33,878 nucleotides of DNA, from positions 1-33,878 of the IMG/VR virus record IMGVR_UViG_3300049893_001811, one strand, 5' to 3'. Under the pieces are notes generated by a model. The model saw only the letters and a program-made list of their open reading frames with translations, did no database searches and had not been told where the DNA came from. Origin of the DNA: a virus. Below, in pieces: positions 5,221 through 31,078 of the stretch (position 1 is its first letter; each line of letters begins with the position of its first letter). The position numbers and the translations under genes are program-made.

Positions 5221-5570
5221 GGCTGGTGTCCTTCCTTCTTCATGGCTGTTCTCTGTCGGATGTCGGTGCCGCCCCAGGTCCCCGCCTGCGGGTGGTGGTC
5301 GAGCGCGTAGGCCAGGCACTCGACCTGGACGCCGCAGGACTCGCAGAGGGTCCGTGCGGCGACGATCTCGGCCATGCCCCGTCGTCCGGCGCCGGGCGGC
5401 GGCACGAACAGGTCGGCGGCCTTGGCATGGCCGAACGTCCAGGCGAGCGTGAGGGCCCGCTCGGTGCGGCACTCGCCATGGGCCATCCACGACGGTCGCC
5501 GCTCTGCCAGGTCGAGCAGCTCGTCGACGCTCATCGGCTCGTCGCTGGTGGGGCGCTCGAAGTAGGTCAC
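5217..5570 (-). CDS. WhiB-family iron-sulfur transcription factor, 117 aa
   Basis: Four cysteines are in WhiB spacing: C34, then C76-x2-C79-x5-C85. The G-[TVI]-W-G-G turn of the family is at 97-101, followed by a basic tail (R-Q-R, K-K). WhiB proteins hold a 4Fe-4S cluster and regulate by binding the primary sigma factor; phage copies (for example TM4 gp49) are known to affect host WhiB functions and superinfection. GTG 5570 overlaps the methyltransferase stop (GTGA), with a GAGGTGG ribosome site upstream. A longer N-terminus is blocked by the upstream gene. A likely role is phage or host transcription control. Confidence 0.9.
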   Translation of the reverse strand: MTYFERPTSDEPMSVDELLDLAERRPSWMAHGECRTERALTLAWTFGHAKAADLFVPPPGAGRRGMAEIVAARTLCESCGVQVECLAYALDHHPQAGTWGGTDIRQRTAMKKEGHQP

Positions 5571-6901
5571 TCGTCCACCTCGTCGAACAGGGAGACCGCG
5601 CCGGGCGTCTCTTTGCGGACCTGCGTCGGACCCTGGACCGGGCCGAACCTGGCCTCCCGCTCCGCCCAGGCGACGCGGCCCTCGATAAGGGGCAGGTAGT
5701 CGGCGGTTAGTTCGATCCCGACGGCGTCGAAGCCCTCCAGCACCGCGGCGGCGAGCGTGGTGCCGCTCCCGGCGAAGGGCTCCAGCACGGTCCCGCCGGG
5801 CGGGGTCACGAGCCGGACGAGCCACCGCATGAGGTCGAGCGGCTTGACGGTCGGGTGGAAGTTCTGCTTTATGGTTTCGTTGCGGTTGCGTCGCTCCCAC
5901 GACCCTCCGCTCGGCCTCTCGTCGCCGACCTGCATTTGCACCTCCGGCAGTCCGTCGAGCCCGGCGTTCCGCTCGGCGCGGTCGGGCTTGGCGACGTAGC
6001 GGAAGGAGGTCAGGTCGTCGTCGGTGAACCCGGCCACGGTGAAGAACCGCGAGGCGCCCGCCTCGTCGTCCCCGCTCTGCCGGTCGAGCACCTCGGCGGC
6101 CTCGGGGTCGAGGACGACGTTCGCGGGCCAGCGGCCGAGGCCGTCGACCGGCTTCCCGAAGTCACCGTTCAGTACGTCGCCGAGGATTCCGTTACTGGGT
6201 CCCGCAGTGCACCCGGCTGTCCCGCCGTCCGTCCCCACCCGGCACCCGTCGACGTTCAGGGCGCCGGTGCCGTGGGCCAGGACGTTCGCCGCCACGGTCC
6301 CCGCCAGCGGCTTGCGGGCCACGACGACCGGCTCGTGGGCGGGCTTGAGCGCGGTGCCCCACCCTTCCCACCTGGCGGCCTCCGGCGTGGCGGGCGCGGT
6401 GATAAGCGCCGAGGCAAGTCGCGTTTGCGTTGTGCTGGACCCGAGTCCGTGTCCGAAGGCGCCAGTCCCGCTCGAATGGCCGCTCAGGTGGTAGCCAGGC
6501 CGGTCCAGCTTGTCCCCCACGACCTCCCGCTCCGCGCCCGCCGCCTTGTCGATCGCCTTCGAGACGTCGAGCGACTTCGGGAAGCCGGACCCGTAGAGCC
6601 AGTGGATGGAGTCGCGGACCTCGAACCCGGCGTCCTCGACGGCGCAGGCGAGGCGGTGGTAGGTGCGGGTCCCGCCGAACGCCAGGAGGTGCCCGCCGGG
6701 CTTCAGGACCCGGAGGACCTCGGCCCAAAGGGCGGCGTCGTAGGCGACGCCCTGGGCGTCCCACGCCTTGCCCATGAACCCGAGCTCGTAGGGCGGGTCG
6801 GTCACGACGGCGTCGACCGAGGCGTCGGGAAGGCCGGCGAGGACCTCGCGGCAGTCGCCGTGGTGGAGCGTCACGCGCCGGGTGGTGAGGTGCGGGGTCA
6901 C
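5567..6901 (-). CDS. Second beta-class DNA methyltransferase, 444 aa
   Basis: Motif IV is TDPPY at residues 34-38 and motif I is EPFAGSGTT at 374-382, preceded by an H-P-T-V-K-P segment typical of N6_N4_Mtase enzymes. The order is again beta class; DPPY is usual for N6-adenine methylation. The large middle region (about 100-330) is the probable target-recognition part. It shares no close similarity with the first methyltransferase except the motifs, so two different specificities are likely. GTG 6901 overlaps the nuclease stop (GTGA). No cognate endonuclease is visible, so host-restriction evasion or epigenetic control are the plausible roles. Confidence 0.9.
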   Translation of the reverse strand: MTPHLTTRRVTLHHGDCREVLAGLPDASVDAVVTDPPYELGFMGKAWDAQGVAYDAALWAEVLRVLKPGGHLLAFGGTRTYHRLACAVEDAGFEVRDSIHWLYGSGFPKSLDVSKAIDKAAGAEREVVGDKLDRPGYHLSGHSSGTGAFGHGLGSSTTQTRLASALITAPATPEAARWEGWGTALKPAHEPVVVARKPLAGTVAANVLAHGTGALNVDGCRVGTDGGTAGCTAGPSNGILGDVLNGDFGKPVDGLGRWPANVVLDPEAAEVLDRQSGDDEAGASRFFTVAGFTDDDLTSFRYVAKPDRAERNAGLDGLPEVQMQVGDERPSGGSWERRNRNETIKQNFHPTVKPLDLMRWLVRLVTPPGGTVLEPFAGSGTTLAAAVLEGFDAVGIELTADYLPLIEGRVAWAEREARFGPVQGPTQVRKETPGAVSLFDEVDE

Positions 6902-7386
6902 GCCGACGTCCTCGCTGCGTGGCAGAGGGCCCTGAACCGCACGACGGCCCAGCGCCGCCCGTTGCGGTCCGACCACACGACGGCGTCGTGGCGCGACAGC
7001 CACAGGTCGGCCTGGCAGGTCGTCGACGGCCGGGTGACGAGGATCTCGTGCCCGTCGAGGCGCACCAGCCAGTCGTCGTAGGGCAGGACGCAGACGTCCT
7101 CGCCGACGTCCCGGCTGCCCTCGGTCTTGCGGACGACGACCGGCACGAGCGTCTCGCCCGCCTGCCGCTCGGCCTGGCGCAGCCACGCCGGCCACGCCGT
7201 GTCGGCGACGTTCTTGCACTCGATGGCGACGCCCACCGGGCCGACGACGTCGCCGGGCTGGTGCGTGCCCGAGTGACCGAGCACCGAACGGGTCGTGGCG
7301 GCCTCGGGGTAGCCCGAGCGCCGCAGGTAGTGGACGACCTCGAGCTCGTAGCGGTGGCCCTTGCGCCGCGAGTAGGCCCCGGTCAC
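6898..7386 (-). CDS. Holliday-junction-resolvase-like endonuclease, 162 aa
   Basis: The residues E14 (in a helix following a basic N-terminus), D46 (P-G-D-V-V) and E56-x-K58 (I-E-C-K-N) match the Hjc/VSR-like PD-(D/E)XK nuclease pattern found in phage junction resolvases. A conserved W-P-A-W-L-R-Q-A helix follows, as in related actinophage nucleases. The C-terminal 50 residues are an unassigned beta-rich region. GTG 7386 overlaps the upstream WhiB stop (GTGA). Its likely task is to cut branched DNA formed by replication or recombination before packaging. Other nuclease roles are possible. Confidence 0.75.
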   Translation of the reverse strand: MTGAYSRRKGHRYELEVVHYLRRSGYPEAATTRSVLGHSGTHQPGDVVGPVGVAIECKNVADTAWPAWLRQAERQAGETLVPVVVRKTEGSRDVGEDVCVLPYDDWLVRLDGHEILVTRPSTTCQADLWLSRHDAVVWSDRNGRRWAVVRFRALCHAARTSA

Positions 7387-7736
7387 TCGGTCCACCAGGC
7401 ACGCAGTGCTGACTCGGCCTTGCGCTCGTCGTGGCGAGCCTTCTTGCACTCGTCGGAGCACAGGAGCTGCTGGGCGCTGTACGGCCTGAACTTGTCGCCG
7501 CAGTGCAGGCACGGCCGTCCGATGTCGGCCGTCCTGCGCCACTCGCGCCGCTGCCGGGCGCTCATGCCCCCATACACGCCGTCCTTCTCGAAGGCGTTCT
7601 CCTCGAGGCACTGCTCGGTGACCGGGCAGCCTTGGCAGATGGCGACGGCGGCGAGGAACCCGGCCGTGTCGCCCCTCGTGGGGAAGAACACCTCGGCGTC
7701 GACGCCGAGGCAGTTGGCCTCCTGGTGCCAGGTCAC
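7383..7736 (-). CDS. WhiB-like protein fused to a C-terminal zinc ribbon, 117 aa
   Basis: Residues 1-68 carry the WhiB set: C9, C34-x2-C37-x5-C43, and a G-V-Y-G-G turn at 53-57 followed by a basic R-Q-R-R. Residues 76-97 then hold a second four-cysteine set, C76-x2-C79 and C93-x3-C97 (C-S-D-E-C), which looks like a small treble-clef or ribbon zinc site followed by a basic helix. Iron-sulfur binding is expected from the family; zinc binding in the second part is inferred. GTG 7736 overlaps the upstream stop (GTGA). The extra domain could give it sequence-specific DNA contacts that ordinary WhiB proteins weakly have. Confidence 0.82.
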   Translation of the reverse strand: MTWHQEANCLGVDAEVFFPTRGDTAGFLAAVAICQGCPVTEQCLEENAFEKDGVYGGMSARQRREWRRTADIGRPCLHCGDKFRPYSAQQLLCSDECKKARHDERKAESALRAWWTE

Positions 7737-16423: not shown

Positions 16424-17122
16424 TTAGTACTTGATCTGGCCGACCGACCAGCCGGGGCTCGGACCCACAGGGATCGGGTTGTCGATGCCGAACGTCTTGG
16501 CCATCCACGGGTTCGACGTACTGGACGTCAGCGTCGGGCCGCCGTAGCTGCCGGGCGTGACCTGCTGGTCGAGCAGCCGTGTCGTCGGGGCAGCGGCCTG
16601 GTTCGCCTGGCTCGTGTAGCCGTTGGCGGTGCCGATCGTGAGCGTGCCGCCAGAGTCGGCCTGCGACACGATGCAGACCAACGTGGCCGGGTACGCCGGG
16701 CTGGTGACGCTGCCGCCGGTGAACGACGTCGAGGCGTTGGCCGTCTCGTCAAGCGACTCAATGGTGACGGCCGGGCTGCCCGAGCCGCGCCACACGAATA
16801 TCTGGGCCCGCCAGGCGAACGTGCCGGTGGTCGACGCCGTGATCGTCGGGTTGGCCTCGGCACCGCTGTGCGCCTTGAAGTAGACGTCGAGCGTCGCCTT
16901 GGGGTTGGACGACGTGCCGCCGGTCTTCTGCAACGGGCCGCCGACCGTGTCCCATCCTGCGGGCGGCGAGAACGTGAACGGTGTGCCGCTGGTCTGGCCA
17001 CGGAGAACCATGACCATGGCGTCGCCCGCTGCGAGACTGCCGGGCAGCGGCAGCGTCAGCGACAGCAGCGAGGTCGTCGAGAGCTGAGAGCTCGCACTGA
17101 GGTAGGTGAAGTTGCCGGCCAC
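16424..17122 (-). CDS. Minor tail protein with jelly-roll-like repeats, 232 aa
   Basis: GTG 17122 lies one base after the upstream stop. The protein is beta-rich throughout, with a P-P-A-G-W motif near 57 and repeated T-x-T/S-G-T strand-turns, and G-T-F-A-W-R-A-Q-I-F near 99-108. It resembles surface-exposed tail proteins with carbohydrate-binding-like folds found after Gp37-like genes. No catalytic residues were noted. The exact family is not known to me. Confidence 0.65.
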   Translation of the reverse strand: MAGNFTYLSASSQLSTTSLLSLTLPLPGSLAAGDAMVMVLRGQTSGTPFTFSPPAGWDTVGGPLQKTGGTSSNPKATLDVYFKAHSGAEANPTITASTTGTFAWRAQIFVWRGSGSPAVTIESLDETANASTSFTGGSVTSPAYPATLVCIVSQADSGGTLTIGTANGYTSQANQAAAPTTRLLDQQVTPGSYGGPTLTSSTSNPWMAKTFGIDNPIPVGPSPGWSVGQIKY

Positions 17123-17123
17123 G

Positions 17124-17939
17124 TCAGTAGCCGGGGCCGCCGACCATCTGCACCGACAGGTTCGCAGCACCCGTCCCTGCAGCGGTCGTCTCGACGGTCA
17201 ACCAGTCGAACGCCGTGAGCGACACGTCGGTCAGCAGCGCCGTCTGGTGGTAGCGGCCCGAGTTCAGCGACAGCGTCGCAACCGTCGACCCGTTCTTCTT
17301 GACGACCACGGTCGTCGTCGACGTGCCCGGCGTGTCGAGCGTCGCGTCGACCTGGGTGATGCGCACGGTCTTGTCGGGCGACCAGCGGGCCGAGCCCTCG
17401 ACGGCGAGGGTGGCCTGCGAGAACGTGGCGGGCGTGACGACCTCGACCTTGCCGGACAGCACCTGGGCGTCGAGCGGGCGCACCAGCTGCGCCTTCGGCG
17501 AGCGGCCGGCCAGGGTGCCGTCGCCGACCCGCTTGAGCCACAGGCGCGTCCGGTCGGCGAACGCGTCGGCCTTGGTGTCGAGCTCGGGCACGAACTTGGC
17601 GAAGCCCTCGTCGTCGACGTTGCAGGTGATCGCCACGACCCGGTACGACGTGGGCGTCGAGCCGTCGGGGCCCGGGGCCGTCACGGAGTCCCGCACCCAC
17701 ACGCCCTTGTAGGGCGTCTCGGCGTCGCTCGTCGGCTCGATGCCGATGGTGACGGTGCGCTGCAGCTGCGAGTAGAGCGCCAGGGTGTTCTGGCCGGACT
17801 CGGCCGCCGAGTCGCCCTCCTCGAGCGAGGACAGCGACAGGAAGCCCTCCCGGCGACCGTAGGACGAGATCGACCCGGCGTCCGTCTCGGCCTTGTAGCC
17901 CTTGGCGTAGCGCACCAGGACGGCGTTGAGGATCGTCAC
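17124..17939 (-). CDS. C-terminal part of Gp37-like minor tail protein, 271 aa
   Basis: The frame is the same as that of the upstream gene: TAG (17945-17943), GCC, then GTG at 17939. Its first 40 residues (I-L-N-A-V-L-V-R-Y-A-K-G and the S-S-Y-G-R-R-E-G-F-L segment) continue the Gp37-like fold that begins before the stop, and the rest (about 150-271) is a beta-rich domain likely exposed on the tail. Either it is translated from its own GTG (an AAGGG site is about 7 bases upstream) or it is the end of a 684-residue readthrough product. The split is inside a conserved region, so it is a candidate for recoding or a nonsense mutation. Confidence 0.75.
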   Translation of the reverse strand: MTILNAVLVRYAKGYKAETDAGSISSYGRREGFLSLSSLEEGDSAAESGQNTLALYSQLQRTVTIGIEPTSDAETPYKGVWVRDSVTAPGPDGSTPTSYRVVAITCNVDDEGFAKFVPELDTKADAFADRTRLWLKRVGDGTLAGRSPKAQLVRPLDAQVLSGKVEVVTPATFSQATLAVEGSARWSPDKTVRITQVDATLDTPGTSTTTVVVKKNGSTVATLSLNSGRYHQTALLTDVSLTAFDWLTVETTAAGTGAANLSVQMVGGPGY

Positions 17940-17942
17940 GGC

Positions 17943-19181
17943 CTAGCCCTTCTCGGTGTGCACGAGCTCGGTCAGGTTCGTCCCGGCGGCGTAGGTGGCG
18001 CCCGAGGCGTTGGAGCCGCCCTTGACGTAGGCGTTGAGGCGCAGGCCGACCGGGTCGACGGTGACGTCGAGGTAGGCGTCGCCCAGCTGGCGCAGCACCG
18101 AGAGGTAGTCGGCGCCGATCTGGAAGTTCTCGCCGAGCATCCACGGCCACGGGTCGCCCGCAGAGTCGGTCTCGGAGTCGAACGACAGCGTCCAGCCCGT
18201 GAGAGCCCCACGGGCCGCAGCCTCGAGCAGCAGCTCGAAGACGGCGCCGCCGGCCGTCCGGCCGGGGACCGTCGTCGGGTAGTCGAGCGCCTGCCAGGTG
18301 GCGTCGGTCTTGAACACCGACGAGGCAGTGTCGAGCACGCCGTCGGTCGGCAGCGAGTGGGCCGACACGGCGACCATGCCCCGGTACAGGCCGTTCGGGC
18401 TGTTCTCGTAGACCTCGGCCTCGATGCCGATGGCGTGCGTGCCGGCACTGAGCGGCACGACGGTGCGGTAGCACTCCTCGAAGCTGAACGCCGGGTACTG
18501 CTCGGTCTCCAGCACGACGATGCCGTCGACGTAGAGCGTGGCCCGGTTGTCGGCCGCCAGGTACACGACGAGGTCCATGTCGGTCGGCGCCGTGTAGACG
18601 TAGATGAAGTAGCAGGTGCCCGACGGCGTGACGTTGCCGTAGTTCTTCGACCACAGCCAGCAGGCCGTCGACGGCGACGGCCAGCCCTTCGGCGGGTACC
18701 AGGGGACGTACAGCGGCGGGTCGCCGTCGATGCGGGTGGCGATGGCGTCGTGGCGGACGTACGCGTAGGGCCAGCCGAGCAGGTACGGGTTCTCGGCAAA
18801 GCACCAGTTGAAAGGCCGCACGTCGGAGGCGGGCTTCTTGTCGACGCCACCCTTCGGGTAGACGACGGCGTCCTCCCACAGCGACAGCAGGCCACGGCCG
18901 GAGAGCTCGACGACTTGGTCGACATCCTCGCCCTGGGCGACCATCCGCAGCTCGCGCTGCTCGACGACGCCGGCAAAGGCGGGCTGGCCGTCGACGAGGA
19001 AGCGCACGACGGTGCCGTAGGTGGCCGAGGCCAGGGCGGTGTCGGTGACCTCGAGGCGCAGCGACCAGGTGCCGCAGTCGTTCAGGGTCTCCTGCCAGCG
19101 GTGGTCGAACGCCTTTGGCAGCTCGGCCAGCCGGGTCGAGTTCGTCGAGTTGTAGAGCTCGGCGGTGACGGTGGCGGCCAT
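17943..19181 (-). CDS. Gp37-like minor tail protein, N-terminal part with lectin-like insertion, 412 aa
   Basis: The N-terminal 110 residues follow the pattern of the siphovirus ReqiPepy6 Gp37-like family: W-x-x-R-L tube-forming strands, then V-V-E-L-S-G-R-G-L-L-S-L-W-E-D. About residues 155-290 carry an insertion with A-A-D-N-R-A-T-L-Y-V-D-G-I and G-T-H-A-I-G-I-E, which resembles PA14-type sugar-binding modules. The Gp37 part then resumes near 300 and runs to the T-N-L-T-E-L-V-H-T-E-K-G end, where TAG interrupts the domain. The start is ATG 19181. Family members usually make tail-tip or baseplate structures; cleavage of the host coat is not implied. Confidence 0.8.
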   Translation of the reverse strand: MAATVTAELYNSTNSTRLAELPKAFDHRWQETLNDCGTWSLRLEVTDTALASATYGTVVRFLVDGQPAFAGVVEQRELRMVAQGEDVDQVVELSGRGLLSLWEDAVVYPKGGVDKKPASDVRPFNWCFAENPYLLGWPYAYVRHDAIATRIDGDPPLYVPWYPPKGWPSPSTACWLWSKNYGNVTPSGTCYFIYVYTAPTDMDLVVYLAADNRATLYVDGIVVLETEQYPAFSFEECYRTVVPLSAGTHAIGIEAEVYENSPNGLYRGMVAVSAHSLPTDGVLDTASSVFKTDATWQALDYPTTVPGRTAGGAVFELLLEAAARGALTGWTLSFDSETDSAGDPWPWMLGENFQIGADYLSVLRQLGDAYLDVTVDPVGLRLNAYVKGGSNASGATYAAGTNLTELVHTEKG

Positions 19182-19182
19182 G

Positions 19183-19326
19183 TCAGGACGTCCTCGGGCC
19201 GCGCCGCACCCGGGCCTTGCGCACGATGGCGCCCAGCACGACGGTCACGTTCGCTGCGTTGAGCGTCGGGGCCTGTGGCACTGCGGTCTGCGAGACGACC
19301 GGCAGCGAGACGGTCACGTCGGCCAT
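19183..19326 (-). CDS. Tiny tail-region protein, 47 aa
   Basis: A small frame starts at ATG 19326, sharing one base with the upstream stop (TGATG), and ends at 19183, one base before the next ATG. Its beta-like Val/Thr stretch (V-S-L-P-V-V-S, V-T-V-V-L-G) is followed by a basic tail (R-K-A-R-V-R-R). Codon bias and junctions support it as a gene; function unknown. It could be a small structural peptide of the tail. Confidence 0.55.
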   Translation of the reverse strand: MADVTVSLPVVSQTAVPQAPTLNAANVTVVLGAIVRKARVRRGPRTS

Positions 19327-19727
19327 CAGATGCTGAACCAGCCAGAGGCTGACACGGTGAGCGTGATGTTGCCGCCCGAGGTCACGATCGAGATCGCCGC
19401 CGACGAGGCGTTCGTGTCGAACCAGGCGATGAGCGGGCTCGTCGAGTCGGTGCCGGTGTCCTTGTAGACCCAGATCCCGGTGACCGTCGAGCCTGCAGCC
19501 ACGGCGCTGAACGTCGGGTCGGCCGAGTCGAACGCGCCGCCGGTGGTCGTCTTCGACGCCAGCGTGGTTGTCGCCACCCGGTTGCCGGCGGCGACGTCGT
19601 CGAGGTAGTCGTGCGCCGAGCTGTACGAGTACGTCTTGGTCAGGACGACCTTGATCGTGTCGTTCAGCAGGTCGATGTCGCCGTCGAGGAACAGCTTGCG
19701 TGCAGATGCCTGGACTGCGTTCGCCAT
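19326..19727 (-). CDS. Tail protein of unknown role, 133 aa
   Basis: The N-terminal segment (A-R-K-L-F-L-D-G-D-I-D-L-L-N-D-T-I-K-V) is followed by a Y-S-Y-S-S-A-H-D-Y-L motif and a beta-rich, Ser/Thr-rich C-terminus ending W-F-S-I. Actinophages often carry such a protein between the distal tail and Gp37-like genes. The start is ATG 19727. Location and composition indicate a tail structural protein; no enzymatic features are present. Confidence 0.65.
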   Translation of the reverse strand: MANAVQASARKLFLDGDIDLLNDTIKVVLTKTYSYSSAHDYLDDVAAGNRVATTTLASKTTTGGAFDSADPTFSAVAAGSTVTGIWVYKDTGTDSTSPLIAWFDTNASSAAISIVTSGGNITLTVSASGWFSI

Positions 19728-19728
19728 G

Positions 19729-20202
19729 TCAGACGATCCTTCCGCTAGGGATCGACAGCTCGATGACCGCCTTGGTCCAGCTGCCGTCCTCCGAGATGGT
19801 CCCGAGCTCCATGCCCAGGACGTGCACCGGCTCGGTGCGCGTGGTGCCGTCCGGCATGGTCAGCACGGCCGAACGGGTGCCGTCGCTCGTGCCAGTGGGC
19901 GCCACGACGTTGGTGATGAGGTAGTCGACGTTGGCCTGCAGGCCCTCGTACTTGTCGGCCACGGCAGCGCCGGTCCGGTCGTGGGTGCCCGAGACCAGCA
20001 TCTGCAGGCTGCGCACCGTGACGGTGGCCCGGCGCTGGTAGGCGATGACGCCTGCGGCGCCCGGCAGGATGCGGTCGGAGCCCCGCACGTTCGCCGGGAG
20101 CCACAGCTCGTAGAGGTTCAGCACCTTCCAGGCCGGGCCGTTCATGGCGACGCCGCCGATGGTGAGGTCGCCCGCCGCCGTGTTGTACGTCAGCTTGGGC
20201 AT
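19729..20202 (-). CDS. Probable distal-tail-type minor tail protein, 157 aa
   Basis: It follows the tape measure directly (2 bases apart), as distal tail proteins do in siphoviruses. The fold looks like a beta-sandwich, with L-Y-E-L-W-L near 30-35 and repeated V-x-V strands, for example A-T-V-T-V-R-S-L. It probably connects the tail tube end to the Gp37-like hub. The start is ATG 20202. Assignment rests mainly on order and composition. Confidence 0.62.
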   Translation of the reverse strand: MPKLTYNTAAGDLTIGGVAMNGPAWKVLNLYELWLPANVRGSDRILPGAAGVIAYQRRATVTVRSLQMLVSGTHDRTGAAVADKYEGLQANVDYLITNVVAPTGTSDGTRSAVLTMPDGTTRTEPVHVLGMELGTISEDGSWTKAVIELSIPSGRIV

Positions 20203-20204
20203 CG

Positions 20205-22631
20205 TCAGCGTCCGATCAGGTAGGCGGCGTCCCGCTGCTTGCGCACGACCTCGGTGGCGGTCAGCACCGGGTCCGTGGTCGTGATGTTGAACGTGTTGCC
20301 GCCACCGCCGGCGAGCATGGCCTCGACGCCGCGCACGAGCGCCTTGGAGTCGTCGGAGTCCATGACGAAGCCCGAGCTCGAGGGCACGAACATCTCGGCG
20401 CCCATCTCGTTGACCATCGACCGCTGGCCCTTGGCGAGCGGGCCGCCGAGGGCGCGACGGCGCCTGCTCCTCGGCAGCACGCCCTGGCCGGGACCGAAAC
20501 CTGGAATCTGGCCTGGGACGTACTGCGGAAGGTTGACAGGATCGACCTCGACGCGCACCGTGCGAGGTCGTGTCGCCTCGTCGATCAACCGGTTGGCCGT
20601 AGCGATGTCGCCCGCCAGCAGTGCGTTGTCGATGGCGACGCGAACCTCTTGCGGGGCCTCACTGAGGTCGGTCTGGAACAGCGCCAGACGCTGCTTGACG
20701 AGCGCCAGCTGCTCCTCGACCTGCGTGATCTTGAGCGCTACCTCGATCTGCTGGTCCGTGAGCCCGGCCAGTCCCAGGTACTGCTGGATCTGGTCGGGCG
20801 GGATGCCGGCAGCCTGCAGCGCCTTGGTCAGCACGTCGCGGTACTGCGCCGCCAGGACCGGCACGAGCTCCTCGTTGCCCGACGCGATCAGCGACTGGAA
20901 CTGCTTGGCTGCGGCGTCGCCGATCGCCAGCAGTGACGTGATCGCCTTGCCGGACGCCTCGGTGATCTTCGTGACGTCGAACGCCTCGAGGAAGTTCTTG
21001 GGCAGACCGGCCAGGTCCTCGTTGAGCGTGCGCAGCTTGTCGCTGAGGTTGACCGTGGCGCTGGCGATGTCGTCGAGCTGCGTGCCCTGCTCGATGGAGT
21101 CGCCGAACGCCTTGGCTCCGGCCTGGGCGGCCTGGTAGGCGTCGTCGAGCGACCGCACCTTCTGCTCGTAGGCGGCCAGCGTCTTCTGGATGCCCTCGAT
21201 CGAGGCGTTCTCGCTGTCGATCGCGTCGACAGCGTCTTCAACGGCCTTGTTCTGGTCTCGCTGAGCGACGGTTGCGGCAGCGGTGGCGCCGGCGGAGAGG
21301 CGGATCTGCTCTTTGTAACGCTTGATGTCGCCCTCAAGCGCCTTGATGTTGCTGGAGCTGCCAGTCGTGTTGTTCTCAAGGACGGCAATCGCGTTGGAGA
21401 GTGCTTGGATGTTGCCGTCCTTGCTCAGACTCTCCAGCGTTCGCCGAACGTCGCTCAGGCCGATGTTGATGCCCTCAACCGACAGTCGCTGGTCGAAGAA
21501 CAGATCCTCAAGGCCAACGCTCGAGAGGCTGTCGAACAACCCCTTGCTTTCCTGCTCGGCAGCCTTGAACGCCTTGCCGAGCTCTGCCGGGCCCTTTGCG
21601 TCCGCCAGGTCGCCGACGGCGGCCTTGAACTCGACGCTCTGCAGTCGAGCACTCTCAAGAGCCTGAATGATCTGGAACACCGCTAGGGCGCCAGCAGCAA
21701 TGCCGATGCCCGCAGCAGCCTTGCCGAACCTCGTCAGGCCGCCCTCGGCGTTGAACGCAGCGTCCTTGACCTTCGTGAACTGGCCGGCAAGCACTGCGAG
21801 GCCGCCGACGGCAGTGACGGCGATGCCCCCCACGGCGCCGACCCGGCCGACGCTCTCGCCGATGGCCGGGTTCAGGTTGTTGAGCGCCCCCAACGCACCG
21901 TTGGCGCCGCTGGCAAGGTCGGAGAAGACGCCGGCGGCACCCTTGCCGACCGTCTCTCCGAGGTCGCCCAGGTTGTTCTTGAGGATCTGCAGCTGGCCGC
22001 TGAAGGTCTTGCCCTCGGCCACTGCGAAGCCCTGCACCGAGCTCGACAGGGCGTCGACGGTCGCCCCGAAGGCGTCCGTCTTGAGCCGGGTGGCGTCGAT
22101 GTCGATCCCGGCCTTCTTGAGGGCGCCCGCCGACCCGCCGATCGACTTGCCGACCATCTTGGCCGCAGCGTCGAGGTCGATGCCGAGCTTGCGGGACAGG
22201 TCGACGACGAGGGGCGTGACCCGCTTGACCTGGTCCTCGGTCAGGCCGAACTGCACGAGGAGCGACTCGGCCCCGACGATGGCGTCGCCGTCGGCGGCAG
22301 TCACCTGCTGCAGCGAGGTCGCCAGGTCGGTGAGCGCCTTGCCGCCGTTGGTGAACGCCTTGTCGCTGTTGCGGATCGAGTTGTCGAGCTTGATCTGCTG
22401 CTGCTCGGCCTCGTCCGACGCCTGGGCGAGCTTGTAGAGCCCGCCGATCACCGCAGCGCCGCCGATGGCGGCCTTCGTCCCGATCGACGTCAGGCGCGCC
22501 GAGGTCTTCTCGGCGCCCCTCTCGAGCTTGGCGTCGAGCCGGTCGGCAGCGGTGCCGGCCTTGTCGAGCTCACGGACGGCGCCCTTGGCGTCTGCGTCGA
22601 TGAGGATCTGCAGACGTTCCAGGAGTGCCAC
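20205..22631 (-). CDS. Tail tape measure protein, 808 aa
   Basis: Its length, position after the chaperone pair and composition (long Ala/Leu/Gln-rich helices; two hydrophobic stretches near 50-75 and 255-310) are typical. The N-terminus, with L-Q-I-L-I-D-A-D-A-K-G-A-V-R-E-L, is the usual tape-measure start. Several G-A-x-x-G-x-L-A stretches occur in the membrane-like part. It sets tail length, about 0.15 nm per residue (roughly 120 nm), and is thought to leave the tail at infection. GTG 22631 follows the chaperone stop by 3 bases in the same frame. Confidence 0.9.
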   Translation of the reverse strand: MALLERLQILIDADAKGAVRELDKAGTAADRLDAKLERGAEKTSARLTSIGTKAAIGGAAVIGGLYKLAQASDEAEQQQIKLDNSIRNSDKAFTNGGKALTDLATSLQQVTAADGDAIVGAESLLVQFGLTEDQVKRVTPLVVDLSRKLGIDLDAAAKMVGKSIGGSAGALKKAGIDIDATRLKTDAFGATVDALSSSVQGFAVAEGKTFSGQLQILKNNLGDLGETVGKGAAGVFSDLASGANGALGALNNLNPAIGESVGRVGAVGGIAVTAVGGLAVLAGQFTKVKDAAFNAEGGLTRFGKAAAGIGIAAGALAVFQIIQALESARLQSVEFKAAVGDLADAKGPAELGKAFKAAEQESKGLFDSLSSVGLEDLFFDQRLSVEGINIGLSDVRRTLESLSKDGNIQALSNAIAVLENNTTGSSSNIKALEGDIKRYKEQIRLSAGATAAATVAQRDQNKAVEDAVDAIDSENASIEGIQKTLAAYEQKVRSLDDAYQAAQAGAKAFGDSIEQGTQLDDIASATVNLSDKLRTLNEDLAGLPKNFLEAFDVTKITEASGKAITSLLAIGDAAAKQFQSLIASGNEELVPVLAAQYRDVLTKALQAAGIPPDQIQQYLGLAGLTDQQIEVALKITQVEEQLALVKQRLALFQTDLSEAPQEVRVAIDNALLAGDIATANRLIDEATRPRTVRVEVDPVNLPQYVPGQIPGFGPGQGVLPRSRRRRALGGPLAKGQRSMVNEMGAEMFVPSSSGFVMDSDDSKALVRGVEAMLAGGGGNTFNITTTDPVLTATEVVRKQRDAAYLIGR

Positions 22632-29752: not shown

Positions 29753-31078
29753 CTACGGCCGGGCGAGCCGGTCGAACTGGGCCCGTGCGACGTCGAGGCG
29801 CCGGCCGGTGGCGACGACCTCGTCGGTCGCCTCCTCGGCCTGCGGGGCCTCGTCGTTGCGCAGCTTGGCGACGGTGGCCGGGTTGGCCGGGTACGTCACC
29901 ACGGAGACGTCGAAGAGCTGGACCTCTCGGATGGTCCGCAGCGAGTAGTCCTTCGACCACTCCTGCCGGCCCTCGCCCTTGGGGATGCGGAAGGCGAAGC
30001 TCATCTGGTCGAGGTCGCCACGGTTCATGGCCGACCGCAGCTCCTGGACCGTCGGGTTGGACGGGTCGAGCTCGGCGCGCACCTTGAGGCCGATGTCGTC
30101 GGACTCGAGCTCGAGCGTGCCCTCGCCGCCACGGCTGCGGGCCAGCGGCACGCCGTCGTGGTTGACCAGCAGACGGACGTCGGCCTCGCCGGCCGACTTG
30201 GCTGCGGCGCCACGGCTGATGACCTCGGTGAACCCGCCGGCCTCGGGACCGCCTGCCACGTCGTAGCGGTACTCGTAGACCAGGGCGTAGCCCTCGAGGA
30301 CGGGCGTGTCGCCGTCCATGCGCAGCTCGACGTCGGCCAGGCGGCGGTGCTCGACCTCGGGCAGCTCGATGCCGTCGTCGGTGCGGCGGTACTCGTCGTT
30401 GACGGTCATGTCGGACCTCGTGGTGTCGGTGCCCTCCGACTCGGACCCGGGCAGCAGCGCCTCGGGGATGATCCACAGCTTGCAGACGGCCTCGGGGGCG
30501 ATGTCGCCGTCGACGACCTCGCAGGCCCGGGCGCCCTCGTAGAAGACGCACGAGGAGCAGACCATGCCCTCGAACGGCGACTCGGCGACGTAGTGGGCGC
30601 CGTCGGGGCCGATGCCCTGGTCGAACTTGCCGAACAGCTCGGCGACGCCCTCGACGGCGTCGTACAGCGCCGCCTGGCGCGGCGTCACGGGGTAGATCGA
30701 CTCGGGCATGTCGCGCGTCTCGTCGCTCATCTGCGTGCTCGTTCCTCGTTCGTCCTCGCTGTCGAGGCTGCTCAGGGTCGACTCGGCCCAGGTCCGGCCG
30801 GGGTCGCCGCCCCACGCCGACCAGGCCACACGGCCCGGCGTCGGGTAGCCGGGCTCGCCGTAGTTGAAGCCTTCGGCCTCGGTGTCCGGCTCGTGCCGGG
30901 CGAAGTAGGACGCCATCCGGCGCACGACGTCCTCGCTGACGGCGACGCCGTCGGCGAGCTGCTGGGCCCTGCGGCGGCCGGTGGCGGTGAAGCCGTCCCC
31001 GGCGAGGCCCTCGGCGATCCACTCGACGGCCTTGGCCGCCTCGTCCTGCACGCCCTGGGGCGGGGTGTAGTCGGGCAT
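29753..31078 (-). CDS. Prohead protease with two extra N-terminal domains, 441 aa
   Basis: Three parts are seen. Residues 1-100 form a helical domain with M-A-S-Y-F-A-R-H-E and P-G-R-V-A-W-S-A-W-G-G-D, a module found in actinophage structural fusion proteins. Residues 174-199 hold four cysteines (C174, C177, C186, C199) in a C-x2-C-x8-C-x12-C pattern with an I-P-E end. Residues 235-425 are the S78-type serine protease: L-E-G-Y-A-L-V-Y-E, H307 (L-L-V-N-H-D), S360 (Q-M-S-F-A-F) and V-S-V-V-T-Y-P-A-N-P. It cleaves the capsid scaffold domain during maturation. ATG 31078 shares its stop base with the portal gene. Confidence 0.87.
   Translation of the reverse strand: MPDYTPPQGVQDEAAKAVEWIAEGLAGDGFTATGRRRAQQLADGVAVSEDVVRRMASYFARHEPDTEAEGFNYGEPGYPTPGRVAWSAWGGDPGRTWAESTLSSLDSEDERGTSTQMSDETRDMPESIYPVTPRQAALYDAVEGVAELFGKFDQGIGPDGAHYVAESPFEGMVCSSCVFYEGARACEVVDGDIAPEAVCKLWIIPEALLPGSESEGTDTTRSDMTVNDEYRRTDDGIELPEVEHRRLADVELRMDGDTPVLEGYALVYEYRYDVAGGPEAGGFTEVISRGAAAKSAGEADVRLLVNHDGVPLARSRGGEGTLELESDDIGLKVRAELDPSNPTVQELRSAMNRGDLDQMSFAFRIPKGEGRQEWSKDYSLRTIREVQLFDVSVVTYPANPATVAKLRNDEAPQAEEATDEVVATGRRLDVARAQFDRLARP

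Follow-up and report, generated by a model that had tools for sequence, protein, structure and literature searches.

A siphophage tail-hub gene divided at a stop/start border, probably by an old and fixed fission

The tail hub forms the core of the phage tail tip; phages, secretion spikes and injection systems have its fold in common, built from one chain. In the virus record analysed here (33,878 bases, 71% G+C; hereafter the window), the hub is encoded by two adjacent genes, hub-N and hub-C, which share one reading frame and are separated by a single TAG codon. The locus raises the question of whether this stop is a real gene end, or whether it interrupts what is still one gene.

The locus and its border

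The minus strand of the window carries genes for the portal, the protease, the capsid, the major tail protein and the tape measure. The tape measure gene (20205-22631, minus strand; PHROG 1533) is followed on the same strand by an ORF at 19729-20202, an ORF at 19326-19727 (PHROG 644) and a small ORF of 47 residues at 19183-19326, directly before hub-N; the pair thus occupies the place of a hub gene, after the tape measure and distal tail genes. Hub-N (17943-19181, minus strand), recognized from its ORF, PHROG profile, structure and dN/dS, runs from an ATG to the TAG and encodes the N-terminal 412 residues of the tail-hub protein, including an inserted PA14/lectin-like domain. Hub-C (17124-17939, minus strand), recognized from its ORF, PHROG profile, dN/dS and a start codon kept in relatives, runs from a GTG to a TGA and encodes the C-terminal 271 residues, namely the remainder of the hub domain and a C-terminal stretch of about 120 residues.

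At the border, the TAG (17945-17943, minus strand; residue 413 of the joined protein), which is supported by the sequence, the relatives and the structural model, is followed only by GCC (17942-17940) before the GTG of hub-C (17939-17937, minus strand). The sequence and its ORFs confirmed an earlier sequence-only reading of one open frame broken by a single TAG, but the read-through product comprises 685 residues rather than the 684 given there. A Shine-Dalgarno-like GAGAAGG (17948-17954, minus strand) lies 8 nt before the GTG, within the E-K-G codons of hub-N, and its duplex with the anti-Shine-Dalgarno sequence has an energy of -5.6 kcal/mol, which is mid-range and of ordinary strength for the window. 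GAG AAG GGC did not vary in six of the seven contigs that carry the split (the window and five others); GAGAAGG as such is absent from the seventh, L079. The distance from stop to start was a 3-nt gap in the window, a 4-nt gap in L007 and an ATGA overlap in L079, the spacing of a translationally coupled pair. Synonymous changes were seen in 0 of the last 5 codons before the junction, versus 46% of amino-acid-identical codons overall, a difference that is suggestive but too weak for use.

One hub domain, cut in a predicted hairpin turn

Both chains matched PHROG 31834, a single tail protein with a profile of 1704 positions. The upper chain aligned to profile positions 5-371 (1.1e-31) and the lower chain to positions 430-558 (5.7e-8), and the joined protein matched at 1.6e-42. 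A tblastn search of phage records located both halves in a single gene of Arthrobacter phages KellEzio, Kitkat, BeatusComedenti and DanielleIgnace; in Microbacterium phages Magritte and Triscuit and in Curtobacterium phage Shrew, the match was to the upper half. The Arthrobacter phage proteins (gp35 of KellEzio and BeatusComedenti, gp36 of Kitkat and gp28 of DanielleIgnace; minor tail proteins of PHROG 31834) are homologous to both halves at about 26-31% identity, and resemble them in lying downstream of the tape measure gene, in the same predicted hub fold and in the inserted lectin-like domain. They differ in that a single uninterrupted gene of about 1700 codons encodes them, in their long additional C-terminal domains and in having no stop at the border. 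When the two parts were aligned to these full-length Arthrobacter, Microbacterium and Curtobacterium phage homologues, as had been proposed as a check, all of the intact proteins continued through the junction without a stop. The intact gene was also present in over 30 viral contigs, comprising 11 contigs (L020-L030), 24 checked members of the L028 group, all without the stop (these two sets overlap by a few contigs), and L080, L082 and L083. Genome contigs were also scanned for prophage relatives, and none were found. Judged from the profile and the homologues on either side, the border is placed inside one tail-hub domain and not between domains, as the sequence-only reading had held. Its label of Gp37-like stood only in part: Gp37-like proteins were among the fold matches, but Pfam PF14594 (Sipho_Gp37) reached 21.8 bits, below the cut-off of 26.2, and covered residues 14-110 only.

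When modelled, the joined protein (mean pLDDT 64, with low confidence in the C-terminal third) matched the solved structures of Mu gp44 (1wru; E 3e-11, TM 0.69 by target) and the MuSo2 tail protein 3cdd (TM by target up to 0.70). It also matched the T5 tail tip, T4 gp27 and other hubs and, among viral models, the KellEzio minor tail protein; the model of the intact Kitkat protein gave the same set of matches. In the joined model, the TAG falls between strands 403-411 and 420-425, and in the better Kitkat model (pLDDT 72) the matching site is a turn between strands 402-410 and 416-421. The predicted site of the cut is therefore the turn of a beta-hairpin in a hub fold like that of Mu gp44 and T4 gp27. 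Given that position, a chain break would likely be tolerated, and two chains could rebuild the fold. Mu gp44 (1wru), T4 gp27 and the T5, Bxb1 and Douge tail-tip proteins match the joined protein in fold but are single polypeptides, with sequence identity to it of about 10%, whereas at the gene level the hub here consists of two ORFs. We thus file the hub-N/hub-C pair as a split variant derived from the gp27/gp44-like hub family, and not as a typical member of it.

The insert of hub-N (about residues 120-277, 18351-18824, minus strand; borders approximate), found by profile match, resembles the PA14-like lectin of Pleurotus ostreatus (6kbj/6t1d; sequence profile E 4e-15), which suggests a sugar-binding role at the tail tip. 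In the fold search of viral models, the third-ranked match was A0A6J5RC48, a 454-residue protein of an uncultured phage (432 columns, TM 0.68 by target, 25% identity), the length of which would fit a separate upper half.

Relatives with the same split and the competing explanations

Six other contigs, from six different metagenomes, carry two ORFs broken at the same point, with three different frame relations at the border. In four of them (82-84% identical), the border reads GGC-TAG-GCC-GTG or GGC-TAG-GCG-ATG, in frame; the hub genes of L016 and L017 are identical, and these two may be one phage. In L007/L019 (77-78% and 70% identity), it reads GGC-TGA-ACGC-ATG and the second gene lies in the +1 frame. 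In L079 (39% and 37% identity), it reads GTG-ATC-ACATGACG, and the TGA and ATG overlap as ATGA in a third frame relation. All split contigs thus have a start codon at the same point of the protein (GTG, or ATG as in L001, L004, L007 and L079), while the frame and the type of stop vary. The gene order around the split is common to the relatives. The dN/dS was 0.06-0.35 for the upper half and 0.11-0.36 for the lower half; both halves evolve under purifying selection. In a tree with the intact homologues, the split members formed one clade (support 100/100), which was adjoined with moderate support (89/91) by the intact L080; the tree was rooted by midpoint only. The comparison of these contigs indicates that the stop is a real gene end and that the split is of long standing, its members having diverged to below 40% identity. 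Because the split has been kept so long in this lineage, the TAG reads as a gene end rather than as an error or a readthrough signal.

The sequence-only reading had offered four options (readthrough, re-initiation at the in-frame GTG, a recent nonsense mutation or a base error), and had named, as grounds for refutation, relatives in which two separate proteins meet at exactly this border; six contigs are of this kind. A continuous gene with a recent nonsense mutation or a miscalled base would fit the fact that one base change to a sense codon joins the frames. This explanation is, however, already refuted by the relatives: the border recurs in six contigs of different metagenomes, four with the same TAG, two further relatives differ in frame at this point, and purifying selection is seen on both halves at dS of about 0.4 and beyond. 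We accordingly reject both forms of this explanation as having next to no probability. Equally negligible is the idea that TAG encodes an amino acid throughout the genome, for which the open frame, and nothing else, could be cited. In the GC3-based gene set of the window, TAG terminates five other ORFs, two of them doubtful plus-strand frames, and clearly ends the head protease gene at 29753-31078; moreover, one relative has TGA at the border. Reassignment is rejected on this stop usage and on the relatives, as the sequence-only reading had argued from TAG usage, although its count of at least six other genes ending in TAG was not fully reproduced.

Programmed amber readthrough, by which some ribosomes would pass the TAG and make a 685-residue fused hub beside the short chain, accounts for a frame that is open on both sides of the stop, for the conservation of GAG AAG GGC TAG GCx in the four closest relatives and for intact homologues that are one chain. 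However, the stop with its in-frame extension is kept in the four close contigs, whereas L019 and L079 have another stop and another frame; because L007/L019 and L079 place the second gene in other frames, readthrough could not join the parts there. Also, the second part retains a start codon at its beginning, and the RNA around the stop folds no more strongly than shuffled sequences (z -0.24). Readthrough is hence disfavoured and unlikely, and of the four options it is re-initiation at the GTG that the data support. That the split is the ancestral state, with the intact relatives being gene fusions, would be compatible with the midpoint placement of the root, but we judge it very improbable, given that intact genes lie to either side of the root as drawn, that one (L080) is found beside the split clade, and that distant phages have single-chain hubs in the solved structures.

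Probable fission of the hub gene, its expression and its precedents

The explanation that we consider highly probable (about 0.88) is that this siphophage tail-hub (gp27/gp44-like) gene is a fixed fission, cut once in the stem of the lineage at the hairpin turn and expressed as two chains by coupled re-initiation. One fission of an ancestral single hub gene, in the stem of this phage lineage, is the simplest reading because the border point is shared, the split members form one clade, both halves are under purifying selection and intact homologues surround them. Stop/start borders of this kind point to termination followed by re-initiation, with the chains made in linked amounts. Ribosomes that end hub-N at the TAG would restart at the GTG three bases on, and GAGAAGG just before the stop would aid this restart; such translational coupling would give two chains in linked amounts, and the mechanism of expression is probably ordinary. 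At the tail tip, the hub fold would be re-formed, with the last strand of hub-N pairing with the first strand of hub-C. We infer the re-forming of one hub from the conservation of both halves and from the predicted position of the cut. A more tentative reading, to which we give a little less than even odds, is that this lineage has a tail hub obligately assembled from two chains, with the cut inside the beta-hairpin of the hub domain, unlike the single-chain solved hubs. If so, the C-terminal chain could be exchanged, or its amount set separately.

The literature that could be searched, without most subscription papers, yielded no direct precedent for a split tail hub, but only split enzymes and one split tape measure. 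Split phage genes include nrdA of Aeromonas phage Aeh1, topoisomerase gene 60 of T4 and gene 43A/43B of 44RR; in Aeh1, the two NrdA polypeptides reassemble and have been shown to be functional (PMC2988022). Like the hub genes, these are contiguous coding regions in which a functional part is interrupted, so that two polypeptides result and have to reassemble, as the hub chains presumably do. They differ in that the proteins are enzymes and the split is due to a homing endonuclease or an untranslated insert (PMC2988022), whereas the hub is a structural protein divided by a stop/start border only, with no inserted gene. In Clostridium perfringens phages CP34O and CP13O, the tape measure gene is split, and fission or fusion was left open (PMC3118219); here too a tail structural gene that is a single ORF in relatives is divided between two adjacent ORFs, but the protein is another one. 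The split hub thus adds a new variant to the phage gene fissions, and the protein affected is an unusual one. A lineage in which the cut has been kept to below 40% identity provides a natural split-protein site for the study of hub assembly, and it warns against taking every in-frame stop in a phage gene from a metagenome for an error or for readthrough.

Several observations were also made on the surrounding genes. The gene directly after hub-C (16424-17122, minus strand) was poorly conserved among the split contigs (34% identity in L002/L003, with no copy found in L001 or L015), unlike the two genes preceding the 47-residue ORF, which were 72-88% identical; on these identities, the contrast would be as in a host-range region. 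Within the last 120 or so residues of hub-C (17127-17498, minus strand), residues 182-266 have weak relatives in viral contigs L036-L038 (31-34% identity), and this stretch is possibly an exchangeable module. Elsewhere in the window, a DNA methyltransferase-like gene (5567-7402, minus strand; PHROG 67, E 1.7e-80) was found; its residues 169-582 cover just profile positions 116-348, a hint that the enzyme carries an insert.
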